This document shows, piece after piece, positions 31,619-51,474 of a stretch of 64,000 bases of DNA. The notes beneath the pieces are model-generated. The model did not search any database, had not been told where the DNA came from, and saw only the letters and a list, made by a program, of their open reading frames with translations. The position numbers and the translations under genes are program-made. The stretch comes from Variovorax paradoxus (GTDB taxonomy: Bacteria; Pseudomonadota; Gammaproteobacteria; Burkholderiales; Burkholderiaceae_C). Numbering within the stretch: position 1 is the stretch's first letter; each line of letters opens with the position of its first letter. The DNA lies in the NCBI RefSeq assembly GCF_009498455.1, contig NZ_CP045644.1, positions 4,963,001 through 5,027,000 of the forward strand, written 5' to 3'.

Positions 31619-32572
31619 GAAGCACTCCAGATGAACGCAACCCGCCTTCGAAACAGACAGGGTCGCTACCGCGCGGTGTGGTGCCCGGCGGTCAAGGTGT
31701 GCGCATCAAGAAGAAGGTAGCGGACCGCCGGGCTCAGGAATGTGCGGACGTGCGTCGGAGGACCGACGTGGTCGCCGCCGTGACGACGCCCACACGACGA
31801 CCGGCCGCTGCCATGGGCAGGGCTGCGCGTGCAGGGTGTAGACGGGGCGAGGAGGAGGCCATGGGGCGCGAGTGTAGGCGATTCTGGCCAGATTGGCCAA
31901 TTGTGGCCCTACTGGTCCGCCGTCGCACCGCCACGGAAATCCGCCATCTGCTGGGAAGCATGAATGCAGAGTTGTCGGCGGATCCGCTGGGAAAGCATTG
32001 CTCGGCGGTCGGGAGCCTGTTTTTTTACGCCGGAGAAGCGTCAGTCGCAAACGGCTTGGGTTCTCGCTTTTCAATGAATTGAATGTGCTGGTGTGGTTGG
32101 TTTTCTTCTTTCAAATAAAACCATTTGATTGGATTTAAGAATTGAGGAATAAAAAATCAACGAAAAATAGAAATTGATTCTTGTTGGAAATAGATCATTC
32201 GAAAATTCACACTTCTTCTCAAATGAAAGCGAATCTCAACAAATGCAGCCGTCAAATCCCTCTTGTACTCAGTAGTTCGCGGTTGGAGCGAATTGTTTGC
32301 ATTGGCATGTAAGTGAAAGGGCTGTCGCCAATTAACTAAAAAGAGTGAGAAACCATTGATCAGTGCGCGATCAATATTTCTCGTTTTCGGGGTTTCTCAT
32401 GTTTTGACGGTTGTAATGAAAGGCTAATGGCGCAAGAATTCGGTACGCAAGAGTTTGTCGATTCAATGGTGTCAAGCAAATGAGAAATCATCTGTTTGCG
32501 TGTGATGGGCGGGTTTCTATTGCGGGCAATTGCGATGTGATTGTTGAATATTGTTAATTAAGGGATTTTTGA
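31619..32572. other. 954-bp gap without a gene, with an AT-rich second half
   Basis: From 31619 to about 32040 composition is ordinary; it holds three TGGCC sites at 9-10 bp steps (31885-31909), the middle one in the palindrome ATTGGCCAAT (31892-31901). From about 32040 to 32572 the DNA is strikingly AT-rich against its GC-rich surroundings and contains the dyad at 32347-32398. Open frames here are short and show no coding bias. The likely role is control of the DUF11 cluster that starts at 32573. I see no tRNA, integrase or insertion sequence. Confidence 0.75.
32347..32398 (+). promoter_or_regulatory. Strong dyad with two alternative pairings
   Basis: ATTGATC (32355-32361) and GATCAAT (32369-32375) form a perfect stem with a 7-nt loop. 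GAGAAA (32347-32352) can extend it by pairing with TTTCTC at 32377-32382, or GAGAAACC (32347-32354) can pair perfectly with GGTTTCTC at 32391-32398. The two extensions exclude each other. It is about 175 bp before the first DUF11 gene and could be an operator or an RNA switch. Confidence 0.6.
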
Positions 32573-33193
32573 ATGACAGCATCCACATGGATTGGGCTTC
32601 CGACAACGGCGCGAGGCGACCGGGGCGGGGTTCGTCGGATGGTCCGGGCAGGGCTGGGCCTTCTTGCCGCAGGGGGCGTGGCTGTGGCTTTGGCACAACC
32701 TGCGGCATCGGTGGAAGCTCCACGGGCACCAGCCACCACAAAGGCCGTGACTGTGGCGTTGACCCAATTGAAGGTCGTCAAGGGGCCGGACGGCAACGAG
32801 CAGTTCCAGGACGCGGCGACGATCAAACCGGGCGACGTCATCGAATACAAGGCCACCTATACCAACAACACCGGAAAACCGGTGAAAGGCCTGGTGGCCG
32901 ATCTGCCGATTCCCGAAGGGCTCGAGTACCTGCCACGCAGCGCCAAGCCAGGTGCGAGCCTCGTGAAAGCCGCCACCAAGACAGCCGTTTTCGAAGCCGA
33001 GCCGCTCGTTCGCAAATTGCCCGATGGCAAGACTGAGCCTGTTCCCTACAACGAATACCGCATGTTGCGCTGGAGCCTGGGCCAATTGCCCGCCAACGGC
33101 AGCGCAACTGTGAGCGCGCGCGCCAAGGTCGAAGCCGTCGCACCGCCGACGGCAGCACCTGCGCCCACCACGCCGCCCCCGCGCGGCAAGTAA
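32573..33193 (+). CDS. Exported DUF11-type single-domain protein
   Basis: A 206-residue protein: basic N-terminus and hydrophobic signal segment (VRAGLGLLAAGGVAVALAQPAAS), then one DUF11-like beta-sandwich (KPGDVIEYKATYTNNTGKPVKGLVADLPIPEGLEYLP, about 85-125) and a Pro/Ala-rich tail. The start at 32573 follows AAGGGA; a later ATG at 32639 would also give a signal peptide. It is the first gene after the AT-rich region and probably the first of the cluster. It has no cell-wall anchor and no catalytic motif. Function unknown; perhaps a periplasmic or surface partner of the large DUF11 proteins. Confidence 0.82.
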   Translation: MTASTWIGLPTTARGDRGGVRRMVRAGLGLLAAGGVAVALAQPAASVEAPRAPATTKAVTVALTQLKVVKGPDGNEQFQDAATIKPGDVIEYKATYTNNTGKPVKGLVADLPIPEGLEYLPRSAKPGASLVKAATKTAVFEAEPLVRKLPDGKTEPVPYNEYRMLRWSLGQLPANGSATVSARAKVEAVAPPTAAPAPTTPPPRGK

Positions 33194-33210
33194 ATAAAGG
33201 CCGCGCCGCA

Positions 33211-33229
33211 CCTCGCGCATTGCGCGAGG
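33211..33229 (+). other. Hairpin between the first two DUF11 genes
   Basis: Perfect 8-bp stem CCTCGCGC/GCGCGAGG with loop ATT, 17 bp after the stop codon, without a T-run. It may pause transcription or protect the upstream message. Confidence 0.55.
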
Positions 33230-33356
33230 CGAGGGCGCCAGCCTTTCCCCCGATCTCCGTTTTCGTGCCAGTCGGCAGGTACGCGTTCGCCCAGCGAAAC
33301 GCACCGGCCAGGTTCTTTCGTGTTCCCGTTTCATTGACAACAGAGGAGAAGACTAC

Positions 33357-36251
33357 GTGATACCCACCCAGCCAACCCCACGCGCCAGCGGCTTCAAGCC
33401 GTCCGCGCCCTGGGCAGGCGCCGCAGCATTGACGCTGGGCTTCCTTTTTGGAAGCCCGGCCGCACTGGCCGCTTCGCCGCCCGCCAACGCCGTCATCGGC
33501 AACCAGGCTTCCGCCAGTTATGCCGACGCAGCCGGCACGACCCAGGTCGCCACCTCCAACCTCGTGCAGACCACAGTGCTCCAGGTTGGCTCGTTCACGC
33601 TCGACAGCGTCGACCGGGTCACGACGACCGTCGTCAACTCGAAGTCCGGCGCCGCCGGTGCCACGGTTTATGCACCTCACGTGCTGACCAACACCGGCAA
33701 CGGTGTCGACACCTTCGCCCTCACGGTCAAGGCCGACGCGGGCAAGTTCTCGCGCGTCGAGGTCTTTGCCGACGCTGACGGCAACGGCATGCCCGACAGC
33801 ACGACGGCGCTCTGCACGGCAACCGGCGCGAATGTTTGCACGGTGACCCCGGTGCAAAGCGTGCCAGGCAACAACGGCGCATTCCGCTTCGTCGTGGCCT
33901 ACACGATCCCGGGCTCGGCCATCGGCAACGGTAGCTTCGACACGGCGACGATCACGGCCACCCCGGGCACCCTGGGGCTGTACACCGCGCCGAACACCTC
34001 GGCAGCTGACAAGGACGAGGTCAAGCTGGCCACCGATGCGGTGTTCAACGTCACTAAGGCCATCGGTGCGCCGTCGATCTTGCCACCCGGCGGCGGCGCC
34101 TGGCCAACCCCGTCAGGCAGTGGCCCGCGCTCTGCCGCCGCTTGTACAACCACGAGCTGGACGACGGGTCTCGCGTCGAACGATAACTGCCAGTACTCGG
34201 TCTATACCCTCACGTTCAACAACACGGGCGGCGCACCGGGCAAGTTCGCGCTGTCCGACCAGTTGCCCCCGGGGTTGACCTACGTCACCGGTTCCGCCGT
34301 GTGGAGCGGAGCGTCCGGTATGGCGCTGGGTGATGGTGCAGCCGGCGATCCGTCGGGCATCGACTTCCAGGTGACTGGCAACACGCTGAATGCCGTGGTG
34401 GCGTCGCTGAACCCGAACGTGACGCAGACGCTGAGCTTCGTGGTGTTGGTGAACAGCACCGCCGCCATCGGCACGTCGACCACCGCCAATGTGGCTCGCT
34501 ACAACGCCGAGAACGCGCCAGCCGGCGTGACGGCAGCCTTGATCGGCACGGTTGGCTCGACCACCAACCCGGCGGCTTACACCGTCCTGGCGCGCTTCGG
34601 CATCGTGGTCGGTTCCAATCCGTCCACCTCCGCAACGGCGCTTGATGCCGTGGCCGGAACGCCCAACCCCGACCTCACCAAGGAAGACCTGACCAAGAGG
34701 CAGTTGGCTGTCGCGGGCGGCAGCGTGCGGTTCCCGCAAACCGTTTTCAACACGGGCGGCGCCACCGATGCAGTGAACCTCTCGATCTCCGCCAACACCT
34801 TCCCGTCCGGCACGAGCTTCCAGTTCTTCGCTGTCGGCAGCGGTGCACCACTGCTGGACACGAACGGCGATGGCGTGCCCGACACCGGTCCGATTCCGGC
34901 CGGCGGCAGCATCAAGATCGAGATGCAGGCGCAACTTCCGCCTGGCTCGGTGGGTGGCGTCTACACGGCCACTGTCCTGGGTCGCTCCGTGAACGACAAC
35001 ACGAAGATCGATGCGACGCTGGACCAGCTCGATAAGGTGATCGACACCTTGGTCGATCTGACCAACACCTCGGCAGGCACGGTCGGCAGCGACATCGGCG
35101 CGGGCCCCAGTCCATTGCCGACCCAGACCCGTGAAACGAGCCCTGGTACCGGCACGGTCTTCGCGTTGTTCGTGAAGAACAACGACCTGACGCCGGCGAC
35201 CTACAACTTCGCGGCCAGCCAGACGACCGGATTCCCCGGCACGCTGCCAGCGGGCTGGACGGTCAAGTTCGTGCCGGCTGGTGGCACCTGTGCATCGGCG
35301 GCCATCGCCGCCGACTTCCCGGTGGCTCCAAATGCGCAAGCCGAGATCGCAGCCTGTGTGACACCGCCTTCGACGCAGGCCGCCGTGGCCGGGCTGAAGA
35401 TCTACTTCAAGGTGCAATCCACCGCGGTGGCATCGACCGGCGGAATCGCTTCCGACGTCAAGACCGACGCCGTGACCGTGACCTCCACTGCACTTCAGCT
35501 GGGCGCTTCGCTCACGCCGAACAACAACGGCCAGGTCGCACCGGGCGGCACCGTGGTGTATGCCCACACGCTGACCAACATCGGCGCCCAGAGCTGCGGC
35601 GCGTACACGCTGACGGCGACGGTGCCTGGGGCCGATGCGACGCAAGGCTGGACCACCTCGGTCTACCTCGACGTCAACGGCGACGGTCAGATCGACGCCG
35701 GTGACACACCGGTGAACGGACCGCTGGCAAGCCTGCCGGTCGGCGCTGCACAGAAGTTGCTGGTGCGCGTGTTCGCACCGGGTGGTGTGAATGCGGGCGT
35801 GAGCAGCACGACGACGGTGACGGCCACCTTCACGGATCCGGCCCCCAACTGCGGTACGCCCTCGGCGACCGATATCACCGCCGTGATCACCGGCCAGATC
35901 CGCGTCCTCAAGACGCAGGCGGCCGACATCGCCTGTGACGGCGTGGCCGACGCTCCGGGCTTCGCGGCAACCTCGCTGCAGATGAAGCCGGGCCAGTGCA
36001 TCGTCTACCAGGTCGTCGCCACCAACGAAGGCATCGTGCAGGTGAGCAACATCGCCATCAACGATGCATTGCCGGCCTACACCACGTTGAGCGCGAAGCA
36101 GCCCGCATTGCAGTGCGAAGCAACCGGCGTGAGTGGTACGGCACTGGCCTTCGTGCCGGGCGCCACGGCCGTGAGCTGCGGCAGCGCAGCCAACACCGTG
36201 GCCCCAGGTGGCAAGGTCACGTTGACCTTCGCCGTGCAGATCAACCCCTGA
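33357..36251 (+). CDS. Large exported DUF11-repeat protein
   Basis: A 964-residue secreted protein. The start is a GTG at 33357 with AGAGGAGAA upstream. A signal peptide (WAGAAALTLGFLFGSPAALAAS) is followed by about six beta-sandwich repeats of the DUF11/conserved-repeat type, each with a sequence like NTGNGVDTFALTV or NIGAQSCGAYTLTATVPGAD. Several Asp-rich loops of calcium-binding form occur, the clearest DVNGDGQIDAGD at 35670-35705; others are DADGNGMPD and DTNGDGVPD. Cysteines are paired within domains. The chain ends in a last DUF11 unit, with no transmembrane segment or sorting motif. It probably forms an elongated surface or secreted rod; function unknown. Confidence 0.85.
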   Translation: MIPTQPTPRASGFKPSAPWAGAAALTLGFLFGSPAALAASPPANAVIGNQASASYADAAGTTQVATSNLVQTTVLQVGSFTLDSVDRVTTTVVNSKSGAAGATVYAPHVLTNTGNGVDTFALTVKADAGKFSRVEVFADADGNGMPDSTTALCTATGANVCTVTPVQSVPGNNGAFRFVVAYTIPGSAIGNGSFDTATITATPGTLGLYTAPNTSAADKDEVKLATDAVFNVTKAIGAPSILPPGGGAWPTPSGSGPRSAAACTTTSWTTGLASNDNCQYSVYTLTFNNTGGAPGKFALSDQLPPGLTYVTGSAVWSGASGMALGDGAAGDPSGIDFQVTGNTLNAVVASLNPNVTQTLSFVVLVNSTAAIGTSTTANVARYNAENAPAGVTAALIGTVGSTTNPAAYTVLARFGIVVGSNPSTSATALDAVAGTPNPDLTKEDLTKRQLAVAGGSVRFPQTVFNTGGATDAVNLSISANTFPSGTSFQFFAVGSGAPLLDTNGDGVPDTGPIPAGGSIKIEMQAQLPPGSVGGVYTATVLGRSVNDNTKIDATLDQLDKVIDTLVDLTNTSAGTVGSDIGAGPSPLPTQTRETSPGTGTVFALFVKNNDLTPATYNFAASQTTGFPGTLPAGWTVKFVPAGGTCASAAIAADFPVAPNAQAEIAACVTPPSTQAAVAGLKIYFKVQSTAVASTGGIASDVKTDAVTVTSTALQLGASLTPNNNGQVAPGGTVVYAHTLTNIGAQSCGAYTLTATVPGADATQGWTTSVYLDVNGDGQIDAGDTPVNGPLASLPVGAAQKLLVRVFAPGGVNAGVSSTTTVTATFTDPAPNCGTPSATDITAVITGQIRVLKTQAADIACDGVADAPGFAATSLQMKPGQCIVYQVVATNEGIVQVSNIAINDALPAYTTLSAKQPALQCEATGVSGTALAFVPGATAVSCGSAANTVAPGGKVTLTFAVQINP

Positions 36252-36264
36252 TCCCACGCCAGCG

Positions 36265-36296
36265 CTGCCGGCGGCCCGCAAGGGCCGTCGGCAGCC
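36265..36296 (+). other. Long GNRA-capped hairpin after the 964-residue gene
   Basis: Fourteen-bp stem (36265-36278 with 36283-36296) with one G-U pair and a GCAA tetraloop, 13 bp after the stop codon. No T-run follows. Probably a transcript-end stabiliser or a partial terminator. Confidence 0.65.
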
Positions 36297-36466
36297 TCCG
36301 CGAGGCCCGGACCCACACCCGGCGCCTCGCCTGTTTCCCCTGCCGCTTTCACGCACATCGCTGCATGCAAGCCAGCCTTGCCGGCCTTCAAAGGCGGCAG
36401 AGGAAATAGTTCTTCGAGTGTTTGACGCGTCTCCTGCATCGGAAGGCGCGACGGAAGGTCCACGGC

Positions 36467-39400
36467 GTGCAATTTCTTCTTTCTTCTTCGTGTGTTGGAG
36501 CGCATCGATGGCGTGGCGCCATGGCGGTCGCGCGCAGCACGCGCGCCGCGATGGTGGCCCTCGGACTTGTTTTCGCGATGGCGTTCGCGCACGCCATATC
36601 GCCGCCCGGCGGCGTCGTGATTCGAAGCATTGCAACGGGCACCTATGTGCCCGCCGGCCTTGCGTACAGTGAAACCGCAACCTCGAACGTCGTGATCGCG
36701 AGCGTGCTGCCCGTGGAAGCGCTGTCGCTCACACAGGACCAGCGTGTGAACCGTCCGCCGGGGACCGTCGCTACCTTGAGCCATCTGCTCACCAACACCG
36801 GGAACGTGGCATCGGGCTATGCGCTGAGTTTCGTCAACAACGGCACCGGTTGCCCGGCCGACGGACTCGACCTGTCGGCACTGCGCGTAGCACGCGACAC
36901 CAACCACAACGGTGTGGTCGATGCCGGCGATCTGGCGTTGCTGCCCGGTGCCGTCGGCATGCTGGCATTGGAGCCCGGCCAGACGGCCGAACTGCTGGTG
37001 CAGGGCACCGTTCCCGCTGCGGCCAGCGGCAGCGCCTGCCTGGTGCTCACTGCCACCACGGCGCTGCAGGGCGTCAGCGCGAGCAACCGCGACATCGTCG
37101 AGGTCGGCAGTGTCGCCGTGCTCGCCCTGGTCAAGTCCGCCAGCTACGCGGGTGCCGTTGTTCCCGGCAGCACGCGCATCGACTTCAGCATCTCGGGCAC
37201 CAACACCGGCGCGCGAGACGCGCAGCCGGGCGGCACGGCGGCGCCCACCGGCACGCAGGTGCTGGTGAACGGAAGCCCGCGCAGCCTCTTGTTGCTGCGC
37301 GACCTTGTGCCGGCCGGCACCCGCTACATCGCAGGCAGCCTGCAAAGCACGGCCGCTGGCGCGGTGCGGCTGTTCCGCATGCCTGGCGATGCCGACTTCA
37401 GCTACCGCACGGCCGAAGACGGCGGCGCCGTCGAAGTTGCCATCGGCGTGCCCGCTGCGCTCTTGCGCAACGCCTCCATCGCCATGCAGTTCGCGGTGCA
37501 GGTGAAAGCCGATCACACCGGCGACATCCGCAACACCGCGCACAGCCAGTACAACGACGGCGTGGCGCCTGCCGCATCACCGTCCAACACGGTGGTCATC
37601 GCAGCGAGCCCGACGCAGGGCCTGAACCGCATCGGCGTCGCCAAAGCAGCTTCCATGCCGCGCATGAACCGCGGCCCCGACGGCCAGCTGGACGGCACTG
37701 CCACCGTCACCTTCGATGTCAATGTGCGCAACTACGGTGCGACAGGGCTCTATGGCGTGCAGGCCACCGATGTCCTCGAAGGCCCGGGTGCGGCTCGCTT
37801 CGGCGCCCTCACGAGCGCCAAGGTGCCGGGCGCCAACCAGTACGCCATCGTGCCCGGAAGCCTGGCGATCGTCGGCAGCCTGGGCAAAGGCGCTGCCGGC
37901 ACCGTGGCGGCCGTCAACGCCGCATTCAAGGGCACGGCTTCTGATCAGAACCTGCTCGCGTCCGGCGCAGTATTGCCTTCGGGCGGCCAGTTCACCGTGC
38001 GTTTCGATGTGCGCTTCAACGCCGCCAGCCAGACAGGCACGCTGTACAACAGCGTGCGCGCGCAGGCGGCGCTCGTTGTCGGTGGCCCGCCCGTCGCGTT
38101 CGACGACTCGGTCAACGGCGGCGATCCCGACGCCGACGGCGACGGCAACCCCACCAACGACACCTCGCCCACGCCGGTATCCCTTCAACGGCCCGAACTC
38201 TCGCTCGTAAAAAGCGTCTCGCTGCCGCGCCGCGTGGGGGAGGGCGTTTACGAACTCGACTACCGCTTCAAGGTCAGCAACACCGGCACGGCACCCGCCC
38301 CGAGCGTGCGGGTGATCGACAACCTGAACTGCACGTTCGACATGGACAAACCCGACGGTCTCATCGCCGCGTGGGAACTCGGCAGTCCGCCCAAGGCGCG
38401 CCAGGGCCTCCTCCAGGTTGCCTCCAGCTTCACCGGCCGCGCGGCCTGCGACCGCGAAACCGCCGCCAGCGCCGATCCGTTCAAGCTGCCCACCCAGGCC
38501 GTGCTCGGCCTCACCGACGGCAGCCGCGCGCTGGCGCCCGGCCAGAGCGACGAAATCGAGTTCACCGTGCGTGTCACCCGCAAGCCTTCGAGCAGCGGTG
38601 CCCGCGTGCCGTTCACCAACAAGGCCTGGGCCGCCGCCTTCGAGCAGAACACCGGCAATCCGGCGCCGGCCACGCTCGTCGCTGCGAGCGCCAGCAGCGT
38701 GTCGTCGATGCTGGCCGACCCGCAGGGCGTGGTCTACAACGCCGTCACCCGCCAGCCCGTGGCCGGTGCCGTCGTCACCTTCACCCGCCAGTCGTGCACC
38801 GATGGCGCCACCAAGCCCATGGCCCTGGCCGAGGTGTTTGGCGGTGACAGCGGCATCTACCGCGCGAACGCCGACGGCAGCCTGTCGATGACCACCGGCG
38901 CCGATGGTGGCTACCAGTTCTACTTCCTGTCGCCGCCGGTCACCGGCAGCTGCACGTACGCGCTGAGCGTGGCGCCGCCCGCGGGCAGTGCCTATGCGTC
39001 GCCTTCGCAGCTCATCCCCGGCACGCCCGGCACCTTTGACCGCTGCGGTGCCATCGTCCCCCACGTGGCCGCACCGCGGGGCGCGGAGCCCACGACTCAT
39101 CACTTCTCGCTCAAGGCTGGCTTCGACGCTTCGGGGGCGGCCTGCGATGCGGTGAACAACCACATCCCACTCGACCCGGGCAATGTGCTGGGGCTCGTGC
39201 TGCGCAAGGAAGGCAGCAAGCGACAGGTCGAGTTCGGCGACTTCCTCGACTACGCGCTCGTCGTCACCAACAAGACCGGCTTCCCCGTCACCGGCCTCAG
39301 CCTCGCTGACCAACTGCCGCCGGGCTTTGCCTACGTCGCTGGCAGCGCGCGGCTCAATGGTGTGGCCACGGCCGATCCCGTGGGCGGCGCCGGCCCCGGG

Positions 39401-42400
39401 CTCACGTTCAAGCAACCGGGCCTTGCACTCGGCGTCGACCAGTCCGCCTCGGTGCGCTACCGTGTACGCGTCGGTGTCGGTGCGCCCACGAATGGCGACG
39501 CCGTCAATCGCGCGCGCGCCAGTTCGGGCCCCATGCAGTCGAACCTCGCGCAGTGGACCGTGCGCGTCACTGGCGGCGTGTTCTCCGACGACGCTTTTCT
39601 CTTCGGCAAGGTCTACATGGACTGCCGGCGCGACGGCCGCCAGGAAGGCGTCGACGAAATCGGCGTGCCCGGCGTACGGCTGTACATGGAAGACGGCACC
39701 CACGTCGTCACCGATGTCGAAGGCAAGTGGAGCCTCTACGGCCTGAAGCCCGTCACGCACGTGCTACGGCTCGATGGGACCACACTGCCCGCTGGCGCGC
39801 GGCTCGAAGCGCTCGACAACCGCAACGCCGGACGCCCTGAGAGCCGCTTCGTCGATCTGAAGAAGGGCGAGTTCCACAAGGCCAACTTTGTCGTTGCCAA
39901 CTGCGATGCGCCGGACGTGATGAAGGACGTCATCGCGCGACGCGAAGCCATCGCCGCGGTGCCCGACACCGAGGCCGAAGCCCAGGTGCGCATGCGCCTG
40001 GACCCTGAAGGACGCATCGTTGCGGTCGGCGACCGGCGCTCGTTGCCCGCCAGCGGCGAAGTGCGGGGGGGCGGCAGCACCGGTACCACGCAAACCAGTT
40101 CGGCGCCGTTGATCGCCATGCCCGCCGCCCCCGCTTCGCCCAGCAGCTTTGTGAGCGGCTCGTCGGGCGGCCAGGGCAGCACGCTCGGCGCGGCAAGCGG
40201 TGGCGGTGCGACGGACGCCACGTCCACCGCTGCGGGCCCTGCGGGCAGTCTCTTCTCCAGCATGCGCATGTCGCGCGGCATCCAGCAGCCGACAGTGGCG
40301 GTGGCGCCACTGCTGCCGCAGGCCGTGCCCAGCCCCATCGACCTCGAAGCCTTGCTGCCCCGCATCGAAAGCAACGCCCTCGGCTTCATCGACTTGCGCG
40401 ACGGCGACACCGTGCCCTCGACGTCGATCAACGTGCGCGTCAAGGGCGAGGCGGGCCTCGCGCTGCGCCTGGGCGTCAACGGCCAGGCTGTGGAGGCGCG
40501 CCGCGTCGGCAAGAAGACCGAACAGGCCAGCCGCCAGATCGGCGCGTGGGAATACATCGGCGTTGCGCTGCAGCCCGGGGTCAACCGCCTCACGCTCGAA
40601 GCCGTCGATCCCTTCGGCAACACGCGGGGCGCGGCGCAGCAGATCAGCGTCACCGCGCCTGACAAGCTCGGCGCCATTCACATCGACCTGCCGGCTACGG
40701 CCCAGGCCGACCTGCGCACACCTGTGGTCGTGAAGGTGCGCCTGACCGACGCGGCCGGCGTGCCTGTCACCGCGCGCACGCAGCTCACGCTCGAGACCGA
40801 CCGCGGTCGCTGGCTCGACGAAGACCTGAACCCCGCGGAGCCCGGCACCCAGGTCTTCATGGACGGTGGCGCGGCCGAGTTCCGTCTGTTGCCTCCGGGA
40901 GAACCCGGCGACGCCCGTCTGCGCGTCACGGCCACGAGCTTCGTGACCGAGGCACGACTCGCCCTGCTGCCCGAGCTGCGTCCCATGATCGGCGTAGGCA
41001 TCGTCGAAGGCGTGCTCGACCTCACGAAGCGCGGCAGCGTGCCCTTGGGCGCGATGCCCGCGGGCGCGGCCTTCGAGGCCGAACTCTCCGGACTGGCCGA
41101 CGAAGGCAACGGCAGCCGCCGCGCCGCCGCCCGTGGCGCCTTCTTCTTCAAGGGCGCGGTCAAGGGCGAGTACCTCCTCACGGCCGCCTTCGACTCCGAC
41201 AAGACGCGCAAGGACCGCCTCTTCCGCGACATCCGCCCCGACGAGTTCTACCCCGTGTATGGCGATTCTTCCGTGAAGGGCTTCGACGCCCAGAGCACGC
41301 AGAAGCTCTACGTGCGCATCGACAAGAACCGCTCCTACCTGCTGTACGGCGACTTCAGCACCGCCAGCAGCACCGAGGTGCGCAGCCTGAGCCAGGTCAG
41401 CCGCTCGCTCACCGGCGTGAAGCACGTCTACGACGACGGCGAGGTGCGCACCACCACGTACGCCTCGCGCACCGCGCAGACCCAGCAGATCGAAGAGTTC
41501 CGCGCGGTCGGCACCTCCGGCCCGTACTACCTGAGCGCCAGCGGCGGCGAGTTCGTCGAGAACAGCGAACAGGTCGAGATCGTCGTGCGCGACCGCAACC
41601 AGCCCGACCTCGTGCTGCAGCGCGCCACGGTGACGCGCTTCGTCGACTACACCGTCGAGCCGCTCACGCGCCGCCTGCTGTTCACGCGCGCCATCGCATC
41701 GGTCGACCCGAACCTCAACCCGCAGTCCATCCGCGTGACCTACGAGGTCGATGCGGGCGGGCCGAAGTTCACCGTGGCCGGTGCCGACGTTCAACTCAAG
41801 GTGGCCAAGAACCTGCAGGTCGGCGTGGTTGCCGCCATCGACGAGAACCCCGAAAACCGCCGCAAGCTCGGCGCCGTCACTGCCGTGGCCCGCCTGGGCG
41901 ACAACACCACCGTCGCCGGCGAATGGGTGCAGACCGATTCCGACCGCAGCGGCAAGGGCAGCGGCGCGCGCGTCGAGCTGCGCCACCAGGGCGAAGACCT
42001 GGCTGTGGCCGCACTCGCGAACAAGACCAGCAGCGGCTTCGACAACCCCGGTGCGAGCTTCTCGGCAGGCCGCACCGAAGCTTCGGCACGCGCCGAATAC
42101 CGCCTCGACGCCGCCACCGCCCTGCGCGGCGAAATGCTCTACGGGCAAGACGCGCTGCGCGAAGGCAGTCGCCGCGGCATCACGGCGAGCGTGCAGCGCA
42201 AATTCGGCGAACAACTCGTGGGCGAGTTCGGCCTGCGCCACGGCCACAACGGCGCCGGCCTGGGCAGCGGCTCGGGCTTCGACTACGGCCAGATCTCCAC
42301 CTACAGCGGCAACCTCGGCAGTGGCGTGGCCGCCAACAACGTCACCGCGCTCGGCGCGGCGGCCAATGCCGGCACCCAGGCCAACGCCAACGACGAAGAC

Positions 42401-43762: not shown

Positions 43763-46700
43763 CCCGATGGTGAGAGCGCCTGTGTTTGAGAGCACCGCCC
43801 TGCCGGGGCTGTCTGCGCTGCTGCAATGGCCAATCCGTCGGTGGTTGCGTGCCGTGCGCAGCGGGATGATTTGCGTTGGTGCGATGGTGTGCTCTGTTCA
43901 TCTGACGCACGCGGCGGAAATCTGTATCGGCTATATGTTCAGCAGCGGGGGTGAGGTGATTCAACTTGGTGGCCAGAAGATCGAGTCGGATGGCGTGTTC
44001 TCCGGTAGCCGTACCCCGCTAACCTGGGAAGAACGTATGACCCCGACGAGCCAGGGCGGAGGGGACGGCACTGCGCTCTTCCTTGGTATGTACACGTACC
44101 CCATAGCAACCAGTCATACCTATCGGTTCACGCCGCCCCTGGAGGGCGCTTCGATCAAGAGCGTCGGTTCAAATTGCGGTTGGTATGACGAACCGTCCTC
44201 GTGCGAGACGTATTCGGTCGATATCAATGGAAGTCATCACGCGTTCACTACGGCGGACATTTCGCCGCTACCGCGATTGCTCAAAGACCCCTCAAACTCA
44301 GTGCCCATTGAATTAGGCGTTACCTCCAATGGAGACATCCGCGGCTTGTTCATGAGCAATGAGGGCTCGGGCTGGGGCGCGGGCATGGTCCGTGTCGATG
44401 CGGCACCCATCTCCACTTTGAGGATCAGCCATACCGCTCCCATAAACGTTGGCCTGTGGGGGATTCATTTCAATCTTTGCTTCCAAGCACCATCGCTTCG
44501 GCTGGAGCTCAAAAAGGAAGCCAGTGCGGCGCGCTGGATCGCGGGCCAATCTGCAAACTACACGCTTTCACTGAATTCGAATGGCGTGCCGACGACGGCC
44601 GAAACGACGATCACCGACGACGTGCCGTCTTCCCTGACCATCGGCGCGCTTCCCGCAGGTTGCACCGGCACCGGCCAGGTCGTGGCCTGCAAAGTGCCCG
44701 CCGGGCTCACGACTTCCATGTCCTTCGTCATCCCCGTGACCCCCAAGGCCTCTGCCTTCCCGAGCGTGGAGAACACCGCCAGGGCATCGGGTGGCGGAGA
44801 CGCGGCCTGCAACGGCACGGGGGCATGCGAGAGCAAGGTCACCACGCCCGTGGCCCTTCCATCGACCATCACCACGAAGAAATCCGCGAGTGCAAGCCCA
44901 CTGATCGCGGGGGCCCCTGACCAGTTCTATGCGATCGCCATTACCGTGGCCGACGCCACGACCACGGCACCCATTGCGTGGACGGACACCCTCCCCAACG
45001 GGATCGTGCTGAGCGGCCCACCGACCGTGAGGTCGGGGACCACCACCGCGAGCCTGAGCGGATGCCCGGCATCCGGCGGCAGCGGCGGAACCCTCCAGTG
45101 CAGCCTGGCGGCAGGCATTGGCCCGGGCACGTTCGAGATCCTGATTCCGATCAACGCCACCCGGGGGGCAACGGGCCTGAACACCGGCACGAACACCGTG
45201 AACCTGAATGGCGGGGGCGATCCCGCATGCACGGCGGCGCTCGGGGAGGCCTGTGACGCCAGCACGCCCGACACGTCGGTCGTGCCGACGAAGCTGAAGC
45301 TCGAAAAAACAGCCAGCGCATCCAGGTTCATCGTCGGCGTGCCGGCCAGCTACACGCTCAAGCTGAGCAGCAACGGCGGGCTGACCACGACGGAAGCCGT
45401 CATCACCGATGCCGTGCCGCCTTCCTTGCGCATCGGCACGCCGCCCGCCGGCTGCACCGTGGCCGGGCAGGACGTCACCTGCCGCGTCCCCCCCGGAATG
45501 ACGACCTTCCAGTCGTTCGTCATTCCCGTGACGCCCCTGGCGCCCGCGTCGGGCATCACCAACATTGCGGAGGCGAGCGGGGGCGGCGACGGCTCGTGCG
45601 CCGGCACAGGCGATTGCGTGAGCGCGGTGACCACGGCCGTGACGCTCCCGTTGGCCATCACCTCGACGAAGACGGCGAGTGCCAACCCCTTGCTCGTGGG
45701 AACGCCGGGGCAGTTCTACAGGGTGGCGGTCCAGGTGGCGAACCTGCCGACGACCGCGCCGCTCGCCATCGAAGACATGCTGCCGACGGGCATCACGCTC
45801 GCCGGCCCGCCCATTCTGTTTCCCGGCACCACCTCGGGCAGCCTGAGCGGCTGCACCACGGTGGGCTCGCTGGTCACCGGCTGCCGCGTGGCGTCGGGCG
45901 TTGCGCCGGGCACCTTCGAGATCCGCATTCCCGTCAACGTCGAGGTCACCGCAGTGGGGGTGCAGGCCGGCACGAACACCGTCAACCTGCAAGGCGGCGG
46001 CGATTCGCTGTGCACCGCCTTGCTGGACGAACCCTGCGATGCAACAACGCCACCGACCGGTGTCCGGCCGGCCGACCCGAGGGTCCGCATTCTCAAGGAG
46101 GTGACCGGCGGCTCGGGCACGCATCGCTTTCTTTTTGCGCTCTCGGGCCTGAGCGTGGCCAGTGAAACCATCACCGTCACCGACGTCGGCGTGGAAGTCG
46201 GCGCGTTGAACATCACGGGGACCGCCGGCGTTGCTGCCAGCATTTCTGAAGTATCGCCGGCGGGGTGGCCCCGCAATCCGGTGAATGCCTTCTGCTTCGA
46301 CGGCAGCGAAGTCATCGCGCCCGCTCCCGCTCCGACGCGCCAGGCGGCTCGTGCCATGGCGGCAGGCGGACCCATCGTGCTGACGGGCAACACGCTGACC
46401 ATTCCGGCAGACCGCATGGTGCCCGGCGCAGACCTTTACTGCGTCTTCGTCAACAACGACGCATTCGTCATAACCGGCCGCGTCTTCGACGACAACGGCA
46501 GCGGCGCAGGCAAGCCGAACGACGGCCTGGTGAATGGCGCAGAAAAGGGCATGGCAGGTGTTCAGATGCGTCTGTCCGACTGCGCCGCGGGTGTTTTTTC
46601 CACGGCCATGACCGACGGGCTGGGTCGCTACCGCCTGGAGGTGCCGTCCGCCACGGCCATCGACGATCCCGTGTGCGTTGAAGAGCTCACGCCGGCCAGC

Positions 46701-47651
46701 CACCTCTCTACCGGCGCGTCCGTCGGGAGCACGCAGCTTCCCTCGGGCGTGGCGGTGGACCAGAACGGCAAGACCTACACCTACCTGCGAACGGCCGACA
46801 GCACGCCGGACCGCATCGCCTTCAGGTGGAACAACAGCTCCGCCGGCGATCTGAACTTCGGCGACGTGGCCCTCAACCGCTTCGGTGCCGACAGCGCCCG
46901 CAGCGGTTCGCCTGGCAGCAGCGTCAGCCACTCGCACACCTTTGTGGCGCAGACCGGCGGGGCGGTGAGCTTCGACACGGCCGGTGCGGTGGCCACGCCG
47001 CCGATCGACGGCTGGAGCGCCAAGGTCTACGCCGACCCGGGCTGTACGGGGGCGCTGCAAGGCGGTGCCGCCGTGCTCTACCCGCCGTCGGTGCCCGTGC
47101 CCGTGACGGCGGGGCAGAACGTGTGCGTCGTGGTGCAGGAGTTCATCCCGGCCCAGGCGCTCGTCGGCCACTCCGACAAGCGCACGGTGCAGGCGAGTTT
47201 TGTTTTCACGAACGCCTCGCCCGGGCTGAGCGCGAGCTATCTCGTGAACGACACCACGACCGTATCGAGCACCGCACTGGAGCTCAAGAAGGAAGTGCGC
47301 AACCTGTCGAAAAGCGGCAGCACCTTCGGACTCATCAACGAGGCCAAGTCGGGCGAGACGCTGGAGTACCGCATCACGTACATCAACAACGGTGCGACGC
47401 CGATCAGCGACCTGACGGTGAACGACACGACGCCGGTCTACACGAGCTTTGCCGGTTCGCAGACGGGCACGACCCCGGCCACGCTGACGGCGTGCGCCAA
47501 GAACACGCCCGCCAATGCCTTGCCTGCACCGGCCGTGGCCTGCGCGGCGACTCAGGCGGCAGGCGGCGCGGGGCCGCTCGCCTGGAAGTTCACCGGGCAG
47601 CTCGCGCCTGGCGGAACGGGCGTCGTGCTCTTCAGCGTGACGGTGAACTGA
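43749..47651 (+). CDS. Exported DUF11 protein with duplicated repeat unit
   Basis: A 1300-residue protein starting 14 bases before the stop of the giant gene, hence translationally coupled. It has a long n-region, then hydrophobic SGMICVGAMVCSVHLTHA, and a unique N-terminal head of about 190 residues with SYSVDINGSHHAF-like sequence. Two copies of a two-domain DUF11 unit of about 265 residues follow (44496-45293, 45294-46080), then an SdrB-like unit (GRVFDDNGSGAGKPNDG) and a C-terminal block shared with the next gene, ending in a DUF11 unit. There is no membrane anchor. It may attach to the giant barrel protein; that is inference. Confidence 0.85.
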   Translation: MKRTDPMVRAPVFESTALPGLSALLQWPIRRWLRAVRSGMICVGAMVCSVHLTHAAEICIGYMFSSGGEVIQLGGQKIESDGVFSGSRTPLTWEERMTPTSQGGGDGTALFLGMYTYPIATSHTYRFTPPLEGASIKSVGSNCGWYDEPSSCETYSVDINGSHHAFTTADISPLPRLLKDPSNSVPIELGVTSNGDIRGLFMSNEGSGWGAGMVRVDAAPISTLRISHTAPINVGLWGIHFNLCFQAPSLRLELKKEASAARWIAGQSANYTLSLNSNGVPTTAETTITDDVPSSLTIGALPAGCTGTGQVVACKVPAGLTTSMSFVIPVTPKASAFPSVENTARASGGGDAACNGTGACESKVTTPVALPSTITTKKSASASPLIAGAPDQFYAIAITVADATTTAPIAWTDTLPNGIVLSGPPTVRSGTTTASLSGCPASGGSGGTLQCSLAAGIGPGTFEILIPINATRGATGLNTGTNTVNLNGGGDPACTAALGEACDASTPDTSVVPTKLKLEKTASASRFIVGVPASYTLKLSSNGGLTTTEAVITDAVPPSLRIGTPPAGCTVAGQDVTCRVPPGMTTFQSFVIPVTPLAPASGITNIAEASGGGDGSCAGTGDCVSAVTTAVTLPLAITSTKTASANPLLVGTPGQFYRVAVQVANLPTTAPLAIEDMLPTGITLAGPPILFPGTTSGSLSGCTTVGSLVTGCRVASGVAPGTFEIRIPVNVEVTAVGVQAGTNTVNLQGGGDSLCTALLDEPCDATTPPTGVRPADPRVRILKEVTGGSGTHRFLFALSGLSVASETITVTDVGVEVGALNITGTAGVAASISEVSPAGWPRNPVNAFCFDGSEVIAPAPAPTRQAARAMAAGGPIVLTGNTLTIPADRMVPGADLYCVFVNNDAFVITGRVFDDNGSGAGKPNDGLVNGAEKGMAGVQMRLSDCAAGVFSTAMTDGLGRYRLEVPSATAIDDPVCVEELTPASHLSTGASVGSTQLPSGVAVDQNGKTYTYLRTADSTPDRIAFRWNNSSAGDLNFGDVALNRFGADSARSGSPGSSVSHSHTFVAQTGGAVSFDTAGAVATPPIDGWSAKVYADPGCTGALQGGAAVLYPPSVPVPVTAGQNVCVVVQEFIPAQALVGHSDKRTVQASFVFTNASPGLSASYLVNDTTTVSSTALELKKEVRNLSKSGSTFGLINEAKSGETLEYRITYINNGATPISDLTVNDTTPVYTSFAGSQTGTTPATLTACAKNTPANALPAPAVACAATQAAGGAGPLAWKFTGQLAPGGTGVVLFSVTVN
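44496..45293 (+). repeat. Two-domain DUF11 unit, copy 1
   Basis: Begins LRLELKKEASAARW and ends near TPDTSV. Homologous along its whole length to copies at 45294 and 48444: same order of an ITDDVPSSL-type domain followed by a TKKSASASPLIAG-type domain. Confidence 0.8.
45294..46080 (+). repeat. Two-domain DUF11 unit, copy 2
   Basis: Begins LKLEKTASASRF; directly follows copy 1 in the same gene. The boundary is approximate, judged from protein similarity. Confidence 0.8.
46476..47651 (+). repeat. Shared C-terminal block, copy A
   Basis: From GRVFDDNG to the stop codon, 1176 bp. It aligns without large gaps to 49593-50765 (1173 bp). Similarity is highest in the last 370 bp, where long stretches are nearly identical in DNA. 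Confidence 0.85.
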
Positions 47652-47813
47652 GCAGGCGCCTGCCCGGAGAAACGCCGCAGACATCTGCAACCCGCATCCC
47701 ATTTGCGCTCGTCCTGGCACGAGCAACGGCCAAAGCAAAGGGGGCCGATCGAAGAACCCTTCGCAGTTGGATTTGCTGTCGCCTCGACAGCCAGAACCTG
47801 AACGGTGAAGACG

Positions 47814-50765
47814 ATGAAAAGAACAGATTCGATCGAGTGTGCGGCTGCGCCGCGGGGCAGGCTTGCATGCACAGGGGCCGTTGCGCTCGCACGGCGCATG
47901 GGCTTTTTTTGTCGCGCCTTGCGAAACGGCATCGTCTTGGCCGTGGCACTGCTGCTGGCTGGAGTGCCGGCCGTCGCGGCGGAGTTTTGCATGGATCTGA
48001 AAAGTGGAGCTGGGCCGTATGGCGGGGTCGTCGTCACACGAACGGGCAGCACGTGCAACCCAGTCGACGTATGGCTCGGCAACGCGGGTGTTTCGCAGTC
48101 CTGTACTTTCAACTTTTCAGCACCGGTGTCCGGTGTCTACGTAGATGCTGCCGGACTCACCTGCAAGGATTCTTCGTGCGAAAAGCTTGTGACGAGCGTC
48201 AATGGCAGCCATTACGCATTCCCCGTCGCGGACGTCATGCTTCCGTCGCCGTTGTTTGGCGGTTCCGCGGCATTGCGCGACGGAAACGGCGATTTTCTGG
48301 CCGCAAGTCAGTCCGGGGACTCTGCTCGAGGGTACATCTCGACTCCGGTCGTGTCTTCCTTGACGCTGTCACACCAGGGTGCTGCTGTTATTAGCGACGT
48401 CGGGGCCCTCTACCGGGTTTGCTTCTCGCCACCCCCTCCCCAATTGACGCTGAGCAAGACGGCGATCCCGGCGGGTTTTACCGTGGCGGTGCCGGCGATC
48501 TACAGGCTGACGCTGAGTAGCCGCAACGGCATGGAGACGACGGCACGCACCACGATCACCGACAACATTCCCGCGACCTTGAACATCGGCACGGTGCCTG
48601 CCGGTTGTACGAAGTCCGGGCAGGTGGTGACATGCACCGCCCCCGTGGGGTTGCGGGCACCGATGTCGTTCGACATTCCCGTGACGCCGCAGGCGCTCGC
48701 ATTTCCGAGCGTCATGAATACGGCCACGGCGACTGGCGGAGGGGATGCGGCTTGCAACGCAGCGGGTGCATGCAGGGCCTCGGTGACCACCCCCGTCACT
48801 CCGTTGCCGCTCATCACCACGACCAAGACCGCAAGCGCCAATCCACTGGTGGCGGGAACGCCCGACCAGTTCTATACCGTGGCCATCACCGTGTCGAACA
48901 CTGCGACCACGGCGCCGATCACGCTGGCGGACACCTTGCCCGCGGGCATCACGCTGGCCGGCCCGCCGACCCTGATCGCAGGGACGAGCACCGGGGTGGT
49001 CCTGAGTGCATGCGCTGCGGCGGGCTCCAGCACGACGGGGTGCAGCATCGGCACCGGCGTCACGCCGGGGTTTTTTTCCGTCAGGATTCCCGTCAATGTT
49101 GCCGCATTGGCCGTGGGGGTCACCGGCGGCACGAACACAGTCAACCTCAGTGGTGGTGGAGACCCGGCGTGCACACCAGCGGTCGGGCAAGCCTGTGACG
49201 CCACCACCGGGCCGATCCGGGTGGTCTTGGGTTCCCCGCAGGTGCGGATCGTCAAGCAGGTCATCGACGGGGCCGGAAGCAACGTGTTCAACTTTGCGTT
49301 GTCGGGCCTCAGCAAAACCGGTGATTCCATCGTCGTGGCAGGTGTGACGACCGCCACGGGATCGCCCGGGATCGTCGGACAGGCCGGCGTGGGGGCCAGC
49401 ATTACCGAGACCTCGCCGGCGGGCTGGCCTGCAAACCCGGTGAGCGCCAGCTGTGTCGATCCCGCCAGTGCCACGCCTGCGGTCGCCTTCGGCACGCTGA
49501 CGGGGAACGTCCTCACGATTCCCGCCAGTCGCATGGTGGCAGGGGCCGACATTCGATGCACGTTCGTCAACAGCGCAGGCTTCGCGGTGACGGGACGGGT
49601 CTTCGACGACAACGGCTGGGGTTCGGGTGTGCCGAACGACGGGCGGGTCAACGGCGGTGAAAAGGGACTGGGGGGCGTGGCTGTGCGGCTGACGAACTGT
49701 GCGGCGGTCGTTCTTTCGAGTGCCACGACGGATGGCCTGGGCAACTACAGCCTGCCCGTGCCGCTTTCGACGGCCATGGGTGCGGCCTTGTGCGTCGAAG
49801 AGTCAACACCTGCCGGCCACCTTTCGACGGGAGCCTCTGTCGGCGCCACGCAGTTGCCCTCGGGTGCCAGCATCGGCAGCGGCGGCAAGACCTACACCTA
49901 CACGCGGGCGGCGGCGGGCACCGCGGATCGCATCGCGTTCACCTGGAATGGCACAAGCAGTAGCGGGTTGAACTTCGGCGATGTTCCCTTCAACACCTTC
50001 GGTGCGGACAGCGTCAAGAGCGGAATGTCCGGCGCCAACGTCAACCACCCGCACATCTTCACGGCGCAAACGGGTGGTTCGCTGAGCTTTGACATTGCCA
50101 GTCAGGTGGCCACGCCGCCAATGGTCGGCTGGAGTTCCAGGGTGCTTGCCGACCCCGGGTGCACCGGCGTGCCGCAAGCCGGTGCAGCAGTGCTCTATCC
50201 GCCCGCGGTGGCAATGACCACGACGGCGGGACAAAACGTCTGCGTCGTGTTGCAGACCTTCGTTCCAGGCAACGCAACGGACGGCGATCGCAACAACGCG
50301 ACGGTGCAGGCCAACTTCGTGTTCACGAATGCGTCGCCTGGCCTGAACGCGAGCTATACGGTGCACGACACCACGACGGTGTCGAGCATGGCGCTGGAGC
50401 TCAAGAAGGAAGTGCGCAATGTGACGAAGGGCGGCACCTTCGGACTCAACAACGAGGCCAGGTCGGGCGAGACGCTGGAGTACCGCATCACCTACACCAA
50501 CAACGGCGCGACACCGATCAGCGGCCTGACGGTGAACGATGCGACGCCGGTCTATACGAGGTTTGCCGGTTCGCAGGAGGACACGACCCCGGCGACGCTG
50601 ACGGCATGCGCGAAGAACACGCCCGCCAATGTGGCGCCCGCGCCGCCGGTGGCGTGCGCGGCGACACAGGCGGTCGGTGGTGCGGGGGCGTTGGACTGGA
50701 AGTTCACCGGGCAGCTCGCGCCTGGCGGCACGGGCGCGGTGCTCTTCAAGGTGACTGTGAACTGA
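47814..50765 (+). CDS. Exported DUF11 protein, paralogue of the preceding one
   Basis: A 983-residue protein. ATG 47814 gives MKRTD, matching the start of the preceding paralogue (MKRTDPMV), so I prefer it to GTG 47805. Signal segment IVLAVALLLAGVPAVAA. The head of about 150 residues differs from its paralogue but shares a short SVNGSHYAF motif. It has one copy of the two-domain DUF11 unit (48444-49239), the SdrB-like unit (GRVFDDNGWGSGVPNDG) and the shared C-terminal block. It looks like an alternative tip on a common base. It is the last gene of the cluster. Confidence 0.85.
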   Translation: MKRTDSIECAAAPRGRLACTGAVALARRMGFFCRALRNGIVLAVALLLAGVPAVAAEFCMDLKSGAGPYGGVVVTRTGSTCNPVDVWLGNAGVSQSCTFNFSAPVSGVYVDAAGLTCKDSSCEKLVTSVNGSHYAFPVADVMLPSPLFGGSAALRDGNGDFLAASQSGDSARGYISTPVVSSLTLSHQGAAVISDVGALYRVCFSPPPPQLTLSKTAIPAGFTVAVPAIYRLTLSSRNGMETTARTTITDNIPATLNIGTVPAGCTKSGQVVTCTAPVGLRAPMSFDIPVTPQALAFPSVMNTATATGGGDAACNAAGACRASVTTPVTPLPLITTTKTASANPLVAGTPDQFYTVAITVSNTATTAPITLADTLPAGITLAGPPTLIAGTSTGVVLSACAAAGSSTTGCSIGTGVTPGFFSVRIPVNVAALAVGVTGGTNTVNLSGGGDPACTPAVGQACDATTGPIRVVLGSPQVRIVKQVIDGAGSNVFNFALSGLSKTGDSIVVAGVTTATGSPGIVGQAGVGASITETSPAGWPANPVSASCVDPASATPAVAFGTLTGNVLTIPASRMVAGADIRCTFVNSAGFAVTGRVFDDNGWGSGVPNDGRVNGGEKGLGGVAVRLTNCAAVVLSSATTDGLGNYSLPVPLSTAMGAALCVEESTPAGHLSTGASVGATQLPSGASIGSGGKTYTYTRAAAGTADRIAFTWNGTSSSGLNFGDVPFNTFGADSVKSGMSGANVNHPHIFTAQTGGSLSFDIASQVATPPMVGWSSRVLADPGCTGVPQAGAAVLYPPAVAMTTTAGQNVCVVLQTFVPGNATDGDRNNATVQANFVFTNASPGLNASYTVHDTTTVSSMALELKKEVRNVTKGGTFGLNNEARSGETLEYRITYTNNGATPISGLTVNDATPVYTRFAGSQEDTTPATLTACAKNTPANVAPAPPVACAATQAVGGAGALDWKFTGQLAPGGTGAVLFKVTVN
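48444..49239 (+). repeat. Two-domain DUF11 unit, copy 3
   Basis: Begins LTLSKTAIPAGF; the only copy in the 983-residue protein, equivalent to both units in the preceding gene. Confidence 0.8.
49593..50765 (+). repeat. Shared C-terminal block, copy B
   Basis: Counterpart of 46476-47651. The final segment with LELKKEVRN to KVTVN differs from copy A by only a few residues. Confidence 0.85.
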
Positions 50766-50772
50766 CCGGATG

Positions 50773-50791
50773 GCCTTCCGAAAAGGAAGGC
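50773..50791 (+). terminator. Hairpin at the end of the DUF11 cluster
   Basis: Stem GCCTTCC/GGAAGGC with loop GAAAA, eight bp after the last DUF11 stop codon, without a strong T-run. It lies between convergent genes. Confidence 0.45.
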
Positions 50792-50798
50792 GCCGCGA

Positions 50799-51236
50799 TC
50801 AGCAACGGCCCTTCTTGGCCTGGCCGGGCGGGCAGTGACCGCCGCCGCGGTGATCGTCGTCATGGTCGTAGCGGTCGCCGCGGTCATGGTGGTGGCGATC
50901 GCTGCGTCGTTCTTCACGGCGCTCGGCGCGGCGCCAGTCGCCTTCACGCCAGCGCCAGCCGCCGTCGGCACGCACCCAGCCACCCGGGGCGTAGGCGTAA
51001 TCGGGGCGGGCCGCCACGTAATAGCCCGGGCGCCATGCGTAGGCGCGGTCGTTCCATTGCCAATGGCCGGGCACCCAGACCTGACCGCTGCGCGGTCGTG
51101 GCGCGGGCTCGTAACGCGGTGCGGGCGGCGCGACCTGGATCAGGCCGGGCACGTTGATGTTGACGGAGACCTGTGCCACGGCGGGCAACGTGGCGGCCGC
51201 CACTGCGGCGGCCAAAAGAATTCTTGTGATTTTCAT
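50799..51236 (-). CDS. WXXGXW-repeat protein (BcpO-like)
   Basis: A 145-residue exported protein: signal peptide ITRILLAAAVAAATLPAVA, then WXXGXW-type repeats (WVPGHWQW, WRPGYYVAARPDYAYAPGGW) and an Arg/Asp/His-rich tail (RRSDRHHHDRGDRYDHDDDH) ending CPPGQAKKGRC. Proteins of this kind are small envelope proteins of unknown role in Burkholderiales; the His/Asp tail could bind metal. Convergent with the DUF11 cluster, and read in the same direction as the tRNA genes upstream. Confidence 0.83.
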   Translation of the reverse strand: MKITRILLAAAVAAATLPAVAQVSVNINVPGLIQVAPPAPRYEPAPRPRSGQVWVPGHWQWNDRAYAWRPGYYVAARPDYAYAPGGWVRADGGWRWREGDWRRAERREERRSDRHHHDRGDRYDHDDDHRGGGHCPPGQAKKGRC

Positions 51237-51422
51237 CGTGAAGCCCTTGATGATTGTTTTGGGGGAAGCCAGTCCGAACAACGCCTGACCGGTGGACCGC
51301 GTGTACGGGATACCCCTGCCTTGGCACCTGCAGTCGTTAACAAACGGGAAGTTTTGCACGCATCGAAGGGCGCCCCTGTCGGACAGGCCCGCGTGCCGCG
51401 AAACGACGCCTGATGTGTGGCG

Positions 51423-51464: not shown

Positions 51465-51474
51465 CAGCAAATGG

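Follow-up and report, generated by a model that had tools for sequence, protein, structure and literature searches.

Complementary ends of co-inherited DUF11 proteins in Variovorax paradoxus suggest a possible donor-strand surface fibre

A cluster of five genes for DUF11-repeat proteins was analysed in a 64,000-nucleotide stretch of the Variovorax paradoxus genome (NCBI RefSeq assembly GCF_009498455.1, contig NZ_CP045644.1, positions 4,963,001 to 5,027,000; hereafter the window, whose numbering is used below). Five plus-strand open reading frames (ORFs) occupied positions 32573–50765, where a first-pass annotation had placed five exported DUF11 proteins and proposed a multi-part surface fibre or adhesion apparatus. 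The NCBIfam model TIGR01451 (DUF11-type repeat) scored above its cut-off in all five proteins, in agreement with that annotation, and the Pfam DUF11 model did so in genes 3, 4 and 5 (cut-off 24.6), with gene 1 (23.3 bits) and gene 2 (23.1) just below. The suggested signal peptides fitted the N-terminal hydrophobic stretches and A-x-A sites seen in a hydropathy scan, and the gene overlap reported at the end of the barrel gene was found as 14 nt shared by genes 3 and 4. The predicted length of 206 aa held for gene 1; gene 3 reached 2446 aa from a TTG at 36422, and a later start gives the approximately 2431 aa proposed before. The cluster comprises four kinds of protein and not five different parts, since genes 4 and 5 are paralogues.

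In the following, an acceptor is a DUF11 domain lacking its last strand and a donor is a free strand resembling the missing one. Gene 1 (32573..33193; P0001, 206 aa) encodes a small export-like protein with a Pro/Ala-rich tail and one incomplete, acceptor-like DUF11 domain, located with the family hidden Markov model (HMM) at residues 81–191 (nt 32813–33145). Gene 2 (33357..36251; P0002, 964 aa), the proposed shaft, combines a proposed donor strand at the presumed mature N-terminus (residues 43–72 with Asn49; 33483..33572) with a C-terminal acceptor domain (residues 848–964 with Lys852 and Asp903; 35898..36248) that ends at position 115 of 155 in the family HMM. In gene 3 (36422..43762; P0003, up to 2446 aa, start codon uncertain), the proposed anchor, a DUF11 rod is fused to a barrel. 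Its proposed donor strand (residues 63–92; 36608..36697) has Ser69 where most gene-3 locus proteins have Asn, and is followed by the rod with four complete DUF11-like domains (residues 234–394, 424–550, 593–753 and 924–1056; 37121..39589), two immunoglobulin-like (Ig-like) domains predicted with AlphaFold2 (residues 1321–1533; 40382..41020) and a predicted large outer-membrane barrel of about 40 strands (residues 1568–2397; 41123..43612).

Gene 4 (43749..47651; P0004, 1300 aa), a proposed tip, consists of a head (residues 57–250; 43917..44498; assigned by position in the protein), four complete DUF11-like domains, a SpaA_4 domain and a conserved C-terminal part with the acceptor domain (residues 1176–1300 with Lys1181 and Asp1226; 47274..47648). 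Gene 5 (47805..50765; P0005, 986 aa), its tandem paralogue (62.5% identity across 792 aa), has a head (residues 58–211; 47976..48437), two complete DUF11-like domains and an acceptor domain (residues 863–986 with Lys868 and Asp912; 50391..50762). Both acceptors end at HMM position 115. The heads of the two paralogues, previously taken to be different, share 29% identity across 135 aa (E 1e-12) and are thus diverged forms of a single head. The gene-5 acceptor appeared in the structure model with six strands, partly under a predicted local distance difference test score (pLDDT) of 50. In the fold search with P0005, the listed matches fell mostly on residues 210–474, and those to integrin and complement look like generic sandwiches.

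A DUF11 profile of 155 positions was made from the family itself, and 455 complete internal domains were aligned. In these domains, Lys6 was present in 75% (20% gaps), Asp40 in 90% and Asn126 in 87%. The three positions match the isopeptide triad of the CLIPPER structure 9IFR, with the mapping of its Asn off by one (PMC12617251; this and the other articles given by PMC number are cited from excerpts), and the DUF11 domain fold resembles 9IFR. Domains scoring at least 20 bits were then compared by their end points, with two near-terminal domains set aside. All 43 C-terminal domains ended at HMM position 116 or earlier; among 642 internal domains, 636 ran past 130, three stopped at 117–130 and three at 116 or earlier. 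The C-terminal domains stop 11 positions ahead of Asn126, so the last strand is missing. Judged by this profile, gene 2 and genes 4 and 5 end in truncated DUF11 domains, without the strand that bears the isopeptide Asn. The remaining triad residues were retained. Among the best 120 of 766 relatives in a gene-2 protein search (one being the window's own), a C-terminal domain was detected in 117, where it ended at 114–117 and kept both Lys and Asp (117/117); none was detected in the other three. Asp was present in 19/19 gene-4/5 acceptors (L041, where the contig ends inside the gene, was omitted) and in 24 of the 25 gene-2 acceptors from the loci. The triad Asp was absent from the incomplete domain of gene 1 in 28/28 aligned proteins (29 given).

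The presumed mature N-terminus of gene 2 is a putatively free strand that appears to resemble the missing one, ANAVIGNQASASYADAAGTTQVATSNLV. If cleavage follows ALA (residue 38, a putative site by the A-x-A rule), Asn49 is mature residue 11, and the spacing from the mature start to Asn49 equals the profile spacing from position 115 to Asn126. The donor Asn occurred in 25/25 gene-2 locus proteins and in 120/120 listed gene-2 homologues (117 by pattern, 3 by eye). Gene 3 starts with a related strand, GGVVIRSIATGTYVPAG, then SNVV. Its donor position was read by eye as Asn in 21 of 29 readable locus proteins; the donor-residue pattern gave 19/30, misreading L027, L045 and L046 and missing L039 and L043. 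Genes 4 and 5 start with heads and have no donor-like start.

A scan with a tail HMM gave 2.9–13.1 bits for 25 gene-2 N-termini and −1.7 to 8.9 bits for 30 gene-3 N-termini; L045, whose frame begins within a DUF11 domain, scored 24.8. Among 49 N-termini of genes 1 and 4 used as controls, the highest score was 4.7. Of 1499 background N-termini, two exceeded 10 (L029, L015), each from an ORF that starts within a gene 3 that is fragmented or cut, and the next best (7.9) was a DUF11 neighbour with a similar start. The scan supports the donor strands as a group and is not decisive for a single protein. When the gene-2 donor was joined to the acceptors, Pfam scores rose from 23.5 to 29.3 bits for gene 1 and from 22.6 to 23.8 for gene 4; the joined form of gene 5 reached 26.8, without a separate control. 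The gene-4 domain was extended neither by the gene-3 N-terminus (21.4) nor by a control gene-4 N-terminus (22.2).

The neighbourhood of the genes, proposed in the first-pass annotation as a check, was conserved: genes 1–4 kept their order and shared a strand in 15 of 24 loci from named genomes (Variovorax, Xenophilus, Pseudacidovorax; L024 with frame breaks). Eight of the other nine loci were partial, their contigs ending within or close to the cluster, and L033 contained gene-3 pieces only. Among 61 genomes of the genus, the barrel, gene 1 and the gene-4 C-terminus were each found in 16, the identical 16 genomes, and gene 2 was found in the same 16 and as a fragment in one further genome of 1310 contigs. 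For two sets of 16 drawn at random from 61, the probability of being identical is 5e-15, kinship ignored. On the strength of this distribution, the four kinds of gene form one co-inherited system. At the order level, a barrel match was present in 21/120 genomes, the present one included. Two genomes (G166, G145) had two gene-4-type C-termini near the cluster, and G145 had one more approximately 2.6 Mb away. On a contig of a Polaromonas metagenome-assembled genome (L018), a gene-4-type C-terminus (10031–10585) was seen on the strand opposite to gene 3.

All eight DUF11 matches in the genome (one 7.29 Mb contig) fell within two places, the cluster in the window and a second cluster at approximately 2.80–2.82 Mb (C1:2801458-2817493; L009, L010). 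The second cluster has the same gene order, with proteins of 268, 996, 2539 and 1187 aa. Its gene-3 version extends approximately 146 aa past the barrel end. In P0020, a close homologue of similar length, the corresponding tail is an OmpA domain (residues 2432–2521), and the tail of the second-cluster protein is probably one too. Four matches to the usher family (PF00577) were located elsewhere in the genome (713842, 2825899, 3725598 and 5187214); the one at 2825899 sits approximately 8 kb from the second DUF11 cluster.

Variation of the proposed tips was compared in 17 gene-4-type proteins (15 from the loci, P0004 and P0005). The last approximately 510 residues matched in 272/272 ordered pairs, and the part before them showed no similarity in 128 of the 272. 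Head lengths ranged from 478 to 2143 aa as taken from mechanical ORFs, and in some of these (L019–L021) the start is set too far upstream. Big_1, ALK/LTK glycine-rich or PATR domains were found in the variable part of the four gene-4 proteins scanned. Examples are the gene-4 proteins at L025 17612–25525 and L017 20358–25322, whose variable part has PATR repeats or a glycine-rich region of the ALK/LTK type together with Big_1. Variable heads on a constant docking end suggest exchangeable surface heads.

Relatives elsewhere in the order were examined in 20 regions from 19 of the 20 other barrel-match genomes of the order, one on a short contig being omitted. Genes 1 and 2 were clear in five regions (L036, L039, L041–L043), three (L045, L046, L054) had a gene-1-like protein accompanied by short DUF11 subunits whose starts are donor-like and whose C-termini are similar, and one (L035) was cut at a contig edge. 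The remaining 11 had rod and barrel as two genes, and genes 1, 2 and 4 were not recognisable there. No donor strand was found at the start of the eleven split-type rods (the start of L037 was unreadable); pattern hits in L047 and L048 were internal strands of a complete domain and were rejected as donors. In the split relative L049 (7645–11853, 11850–17369), the barrel gene encodes an OmpA domain on the N-terminal side of the barrel, whereas P0020 and other fused relatives have it on the C-terminal side; the domain has switched its position.

At the phylum level, 25/150 genomes had a DUF11 match. Nine DUF11 regions from eight genomes were inspected, most picked for short frames with a match stopping near profile position 85–90, and because of this selection for early-stopping matches they illustrate the phylum and do not sample it. 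All 20 detected C-terminal domains ended at 111–115, with Asp in 15/15 proteins that were not gene-1-like and in 2/5 that were; a C-terminal domain was undetected in three further DUF11 or gene-1-like proteins of these regions. Donor-like subunits (approximately 330–440 aa; 966 in L099) lay near gene-1-like proteins in L095, L096 and L098–L102, with a barrel relative in view in all of these except L100. L103 was of the split type. In L100 (5308–11490), a 2060 aa protein with 11 DUF11-like domains and an acceptor-type end stood beside gene-1-like and donor-bearing subunits and is possibly a tip in a distant relative.

We consider it fairly probable that the products of the cluster assemble into a surface fibre through donor-strand complementation of their DUF11 (CLIPPER) domains, with an anchor, a shaft, tips and self-made covalent links. 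The proteins, with their hydrophobic N-termini, would be exported by Sec, and gene 3 would fold in the outer membrane as the anchor, its barrel carrying the DUF11 rod and its mature N-terminus presenting a free donor strand. This donor would be inserted into the groove at the C-terminus of a shaft protein or a tip protein. The acceptor of gene 2 would take the donor of the subunit below, and its own donor would enter the next subunit; as gene 2 carries both donor and acceptor, it could polymerise outward. Genes 4 and 5, with a variable head, an acceptor and no donor, would terminate the chain as tips. A gene-2 Asn entering the acceptor of gene 2 or of gene 4 or 5 would complete the triad across chains, so that a self-made covalent link is predicted, while the joint at gene 3 would remain non-covalent in this strain owing to its Ser. 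Gene 1, an acceptor without Asp, might bind donors reversibly without locking them, as a cap or assembly factor, which is a guess. The multi-part fibre of the first-pass annotation is thereby borne out in part, through the complementary protein ends, and not as five distinct parts with unrelated heads. A further proposal, which we put forward tentatively and rate somewhat short of an even chance, is that of a separate proteobacterial fibre class that is free of PapD-type chaperones, polymerises by donor-strand complementation, closes a Lys-Asp-Asn triad across two chains at each joint and grows from or through the giant barrel, which would itself provide the first donor.

A number of observations weigh against the fibre. 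At the gene-3 donor, Asn was found by pattern in just 58/120 homologues, and Ser replaces it in this strain and in the second copy; with Ser or another non-Asn residue there, the joint at the base would often be non-covalent. The donor match is short: P0002 scored 8.6 bits with the tail HMM where the best of 1100 shuffles reached 9.3, and P0003 scored 1.2 bits with a match beside the proposed strand. The Pfam junction test did not discriminate, gene 2 going from 28.5 to 28.8 bits and a reversed-donor control reaching 30.0. One gene-2 acceptor (L025) has Asn in place of Asp, and in the distant region L097 there were acceptor ends and no donor recognised by pattern. No PapD-type chaperone was found in Pfam scans of the five genes or 20 flanking ORFs, the rest of the genome not having been searched; with no chaperone family among these flanking ORFs, the open state of the acceptors is unexplained. 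The barrel itself, to which the first-pass annotation had tied one gene, appeared in an AlphaFold2 model of gene 3 at medium confidence (pLDDT 73.8, predicted template modelling score 0.62); its approximately 40 strands were counted from the secondary structure of the model and are not meant as an exact number.

The proteins might instead be separate fibrillar adhesins, each working alone, gene 3 anchored by its barrel and the others attached to it, bound to the surface in another way or released, with the truncated C-terminal domain a mere variant of the DUF11 fold. A 2025 survey assigns DUF11 repeats to the stalks of fibrillar adhesins made of one chain (PMC12617251), and in the split-type relatives shaft and tip genes are missing although rod and barrel are there. 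We nevertheless regard this explanation as unlikely, as it leaves unexplained why the C-terminal domains stop at an equal point in three kinds of protein, why Lys and Asp are kept without an Asn in cis and why four kinds of protein are inherited jointly. Complementation might also proceed without an interchain bond, by docking similar to that of chaperone-usher subunits, with Lys, Asp and Asn serving packing or inherited from complete domains. The Ser at the gene-3 donor in both copies and the absence of Asp from gene 1 would fit, but the listed gene-2 homologues keep Lys and Asp in 117/117 and Asn in 120/120, stricter than the complete internal domains, although the gene-2 set is less diverse than the internal-domain set, which tempers this comparison. 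We give docking without a bond little weight.

Since both ends are on gene 2, its N-terminal strand could in principle fill its own C-terminal domain and produce a ring or storage form and no polymer; for archaeal thread subunits, some of the AlphaFold models showed auto-complementation (PMC9715654). This appears very improbable: genes 4 and 5 (acceptor only) and gene 3 (donor-like start only) would be left partnerless, and a chain of several sandwich domains would presumably need to bend back. Finally, the cluster could encode an usher-like machine, in which the gene-3 barrel is a remote usher exporting gene-2 and gene-4 subunits and gene 1 is the chaperone. At E 0.01, the Pfam scan of gene 3 gave no match to the usher family (PF00577), an hhalign comparison of the barrel with nine ushers showed no similarity, and a PDB profile search with A1 returned OmpA domains, 9IFR and a short OmpT-porin match, with ushers absent. 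A comparison of the barrel and the two Ig-like domains with usher C-terminal domains gave a weak match (probability 22.5, E 0.0002), which was not used. An usher-like machine seems improbable to us, and assembly by donor strands on a barrel-borne anchor is the reading we retain.

The cluster is flanked on the gene-1 side by a gene for a GreA/GreB C-terminal domain protein (31217–31618) and on the gene-5 side by one for a WXXGXW protein (50799–51470), both on the opposite strand, with two tRNA-Asn genes following the latter; an Rfam scan found these tRNA genes and nothing else. Promoter-like sites did not stand out above shuffled sequence. The distance from the GreA-like to the WXXGXW gene was approximately 400 bp in a close relative (G151), compared with 19.2 kb here (31618–50799). 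G151 has its own cluster on a different contig, and the cluster of G166 is at the same site as that of the window. The cluster looks like an insertion between the two genes.

Several known systems share features with the proposed fibre. In type V secretion, passenger and barrel are encoded by one fused gene in the autotransporter layout and by separate genes in the two-partner layout. The rod and barrel considered here are likewise fused or in neighbouring genes, but no type V barrel or passenger family was found in the Pfam scan of gene 3, and the predicted barrel is far larger. In Isopeptag and SpyTag/SpyCatcher, an isopeptide bond forms when a strand with one partner residue docks in a domain that lacks this residue. 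These tags were engineered by splitting Gram-positive domains, whereas here separate natural gene products would act. Chaperone-usher pili (type 1, P, archaic CU) have head-to-tail subunits with a strand-lacking Ig-like fold and an N-terminal donor, a tip adhesin and an outer-membrane barrel (PMC9715654). They differ from the present cluster in that the DUF11 subunits measure 330–1000 aa, there is no usher-family match and no chaperone family in the 20 flanking ORFs, the barrel is fused to a rod with a donor-like start, and the joint is predicted to be covalent. Archaeal threads (Saci_0406, Sulfolobus) unite donor-strand complementation with an intersubunit isopeptide bond, which links the N-terminal amino group to an Asn two subunits away (PMC9715654) and not, as predicted here, Lys to Asn within the joined domain. 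The threads involve neither outer membrane nor barrel, and their subunit is apparently unrelated. The DUF11/CLIPPER adhesin of Acinetobacter silvestris (B9T28_05395, 9IFR) shares the domain family and triad residues, and the OmpA domain of some gene-3 relatives is a further likeness to CLIPPER adhesins. The Acinetobacter protein is described as a single-chain stalk with intrachain bonds, and the excerpts mention neither donor strands nor split domains (PMC12617251).

Work published in 2025 describes DUF11/CLIPPER as a domain with an isopeptide bond inside one chain (PMC12617251). A preprint on F-ENA reports DUF11 domains in an anchor protein, its excerpts giving no donor-strand role (PMC11952670), and DUF11 is also mentioned in an article on Clostridium taeniosporum (PMC5749712). 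Within the open-licence PMC literature, with subscription papers outside its scope, neither DUF11 proteins as donor-strand fibres nor a description of the gene set was found, nor anything on DUF11 together with Variovorax. The class of mechanism is already known from chaperone-usher pili and archaeal threads; what is new is the fit of the DUF11 ends.

DUF11 is a widespread and little-explained domain in surface proteins of bacteria and archaea, and up to now it has been interpreted as a repeat in the stalks of single-chain adhesins (PMC12617251). The end rule proposed here, with a donor on the anchor, both ends on the shaft and an acceptor on the tip, would give DUF11 an assembly function. It would define a proteobacterial fibre type outside the known pilus pathways, with natural covalent tag/catcher pairs. 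If this is true, split-isopeptide tag/catcher chemistry would already be nature's enzyme-free means of polymerisation, with exchangeable tip heads, and the combination of strain-variable tip heads and a constant docking end suggests an exchangeable adhesion platform.

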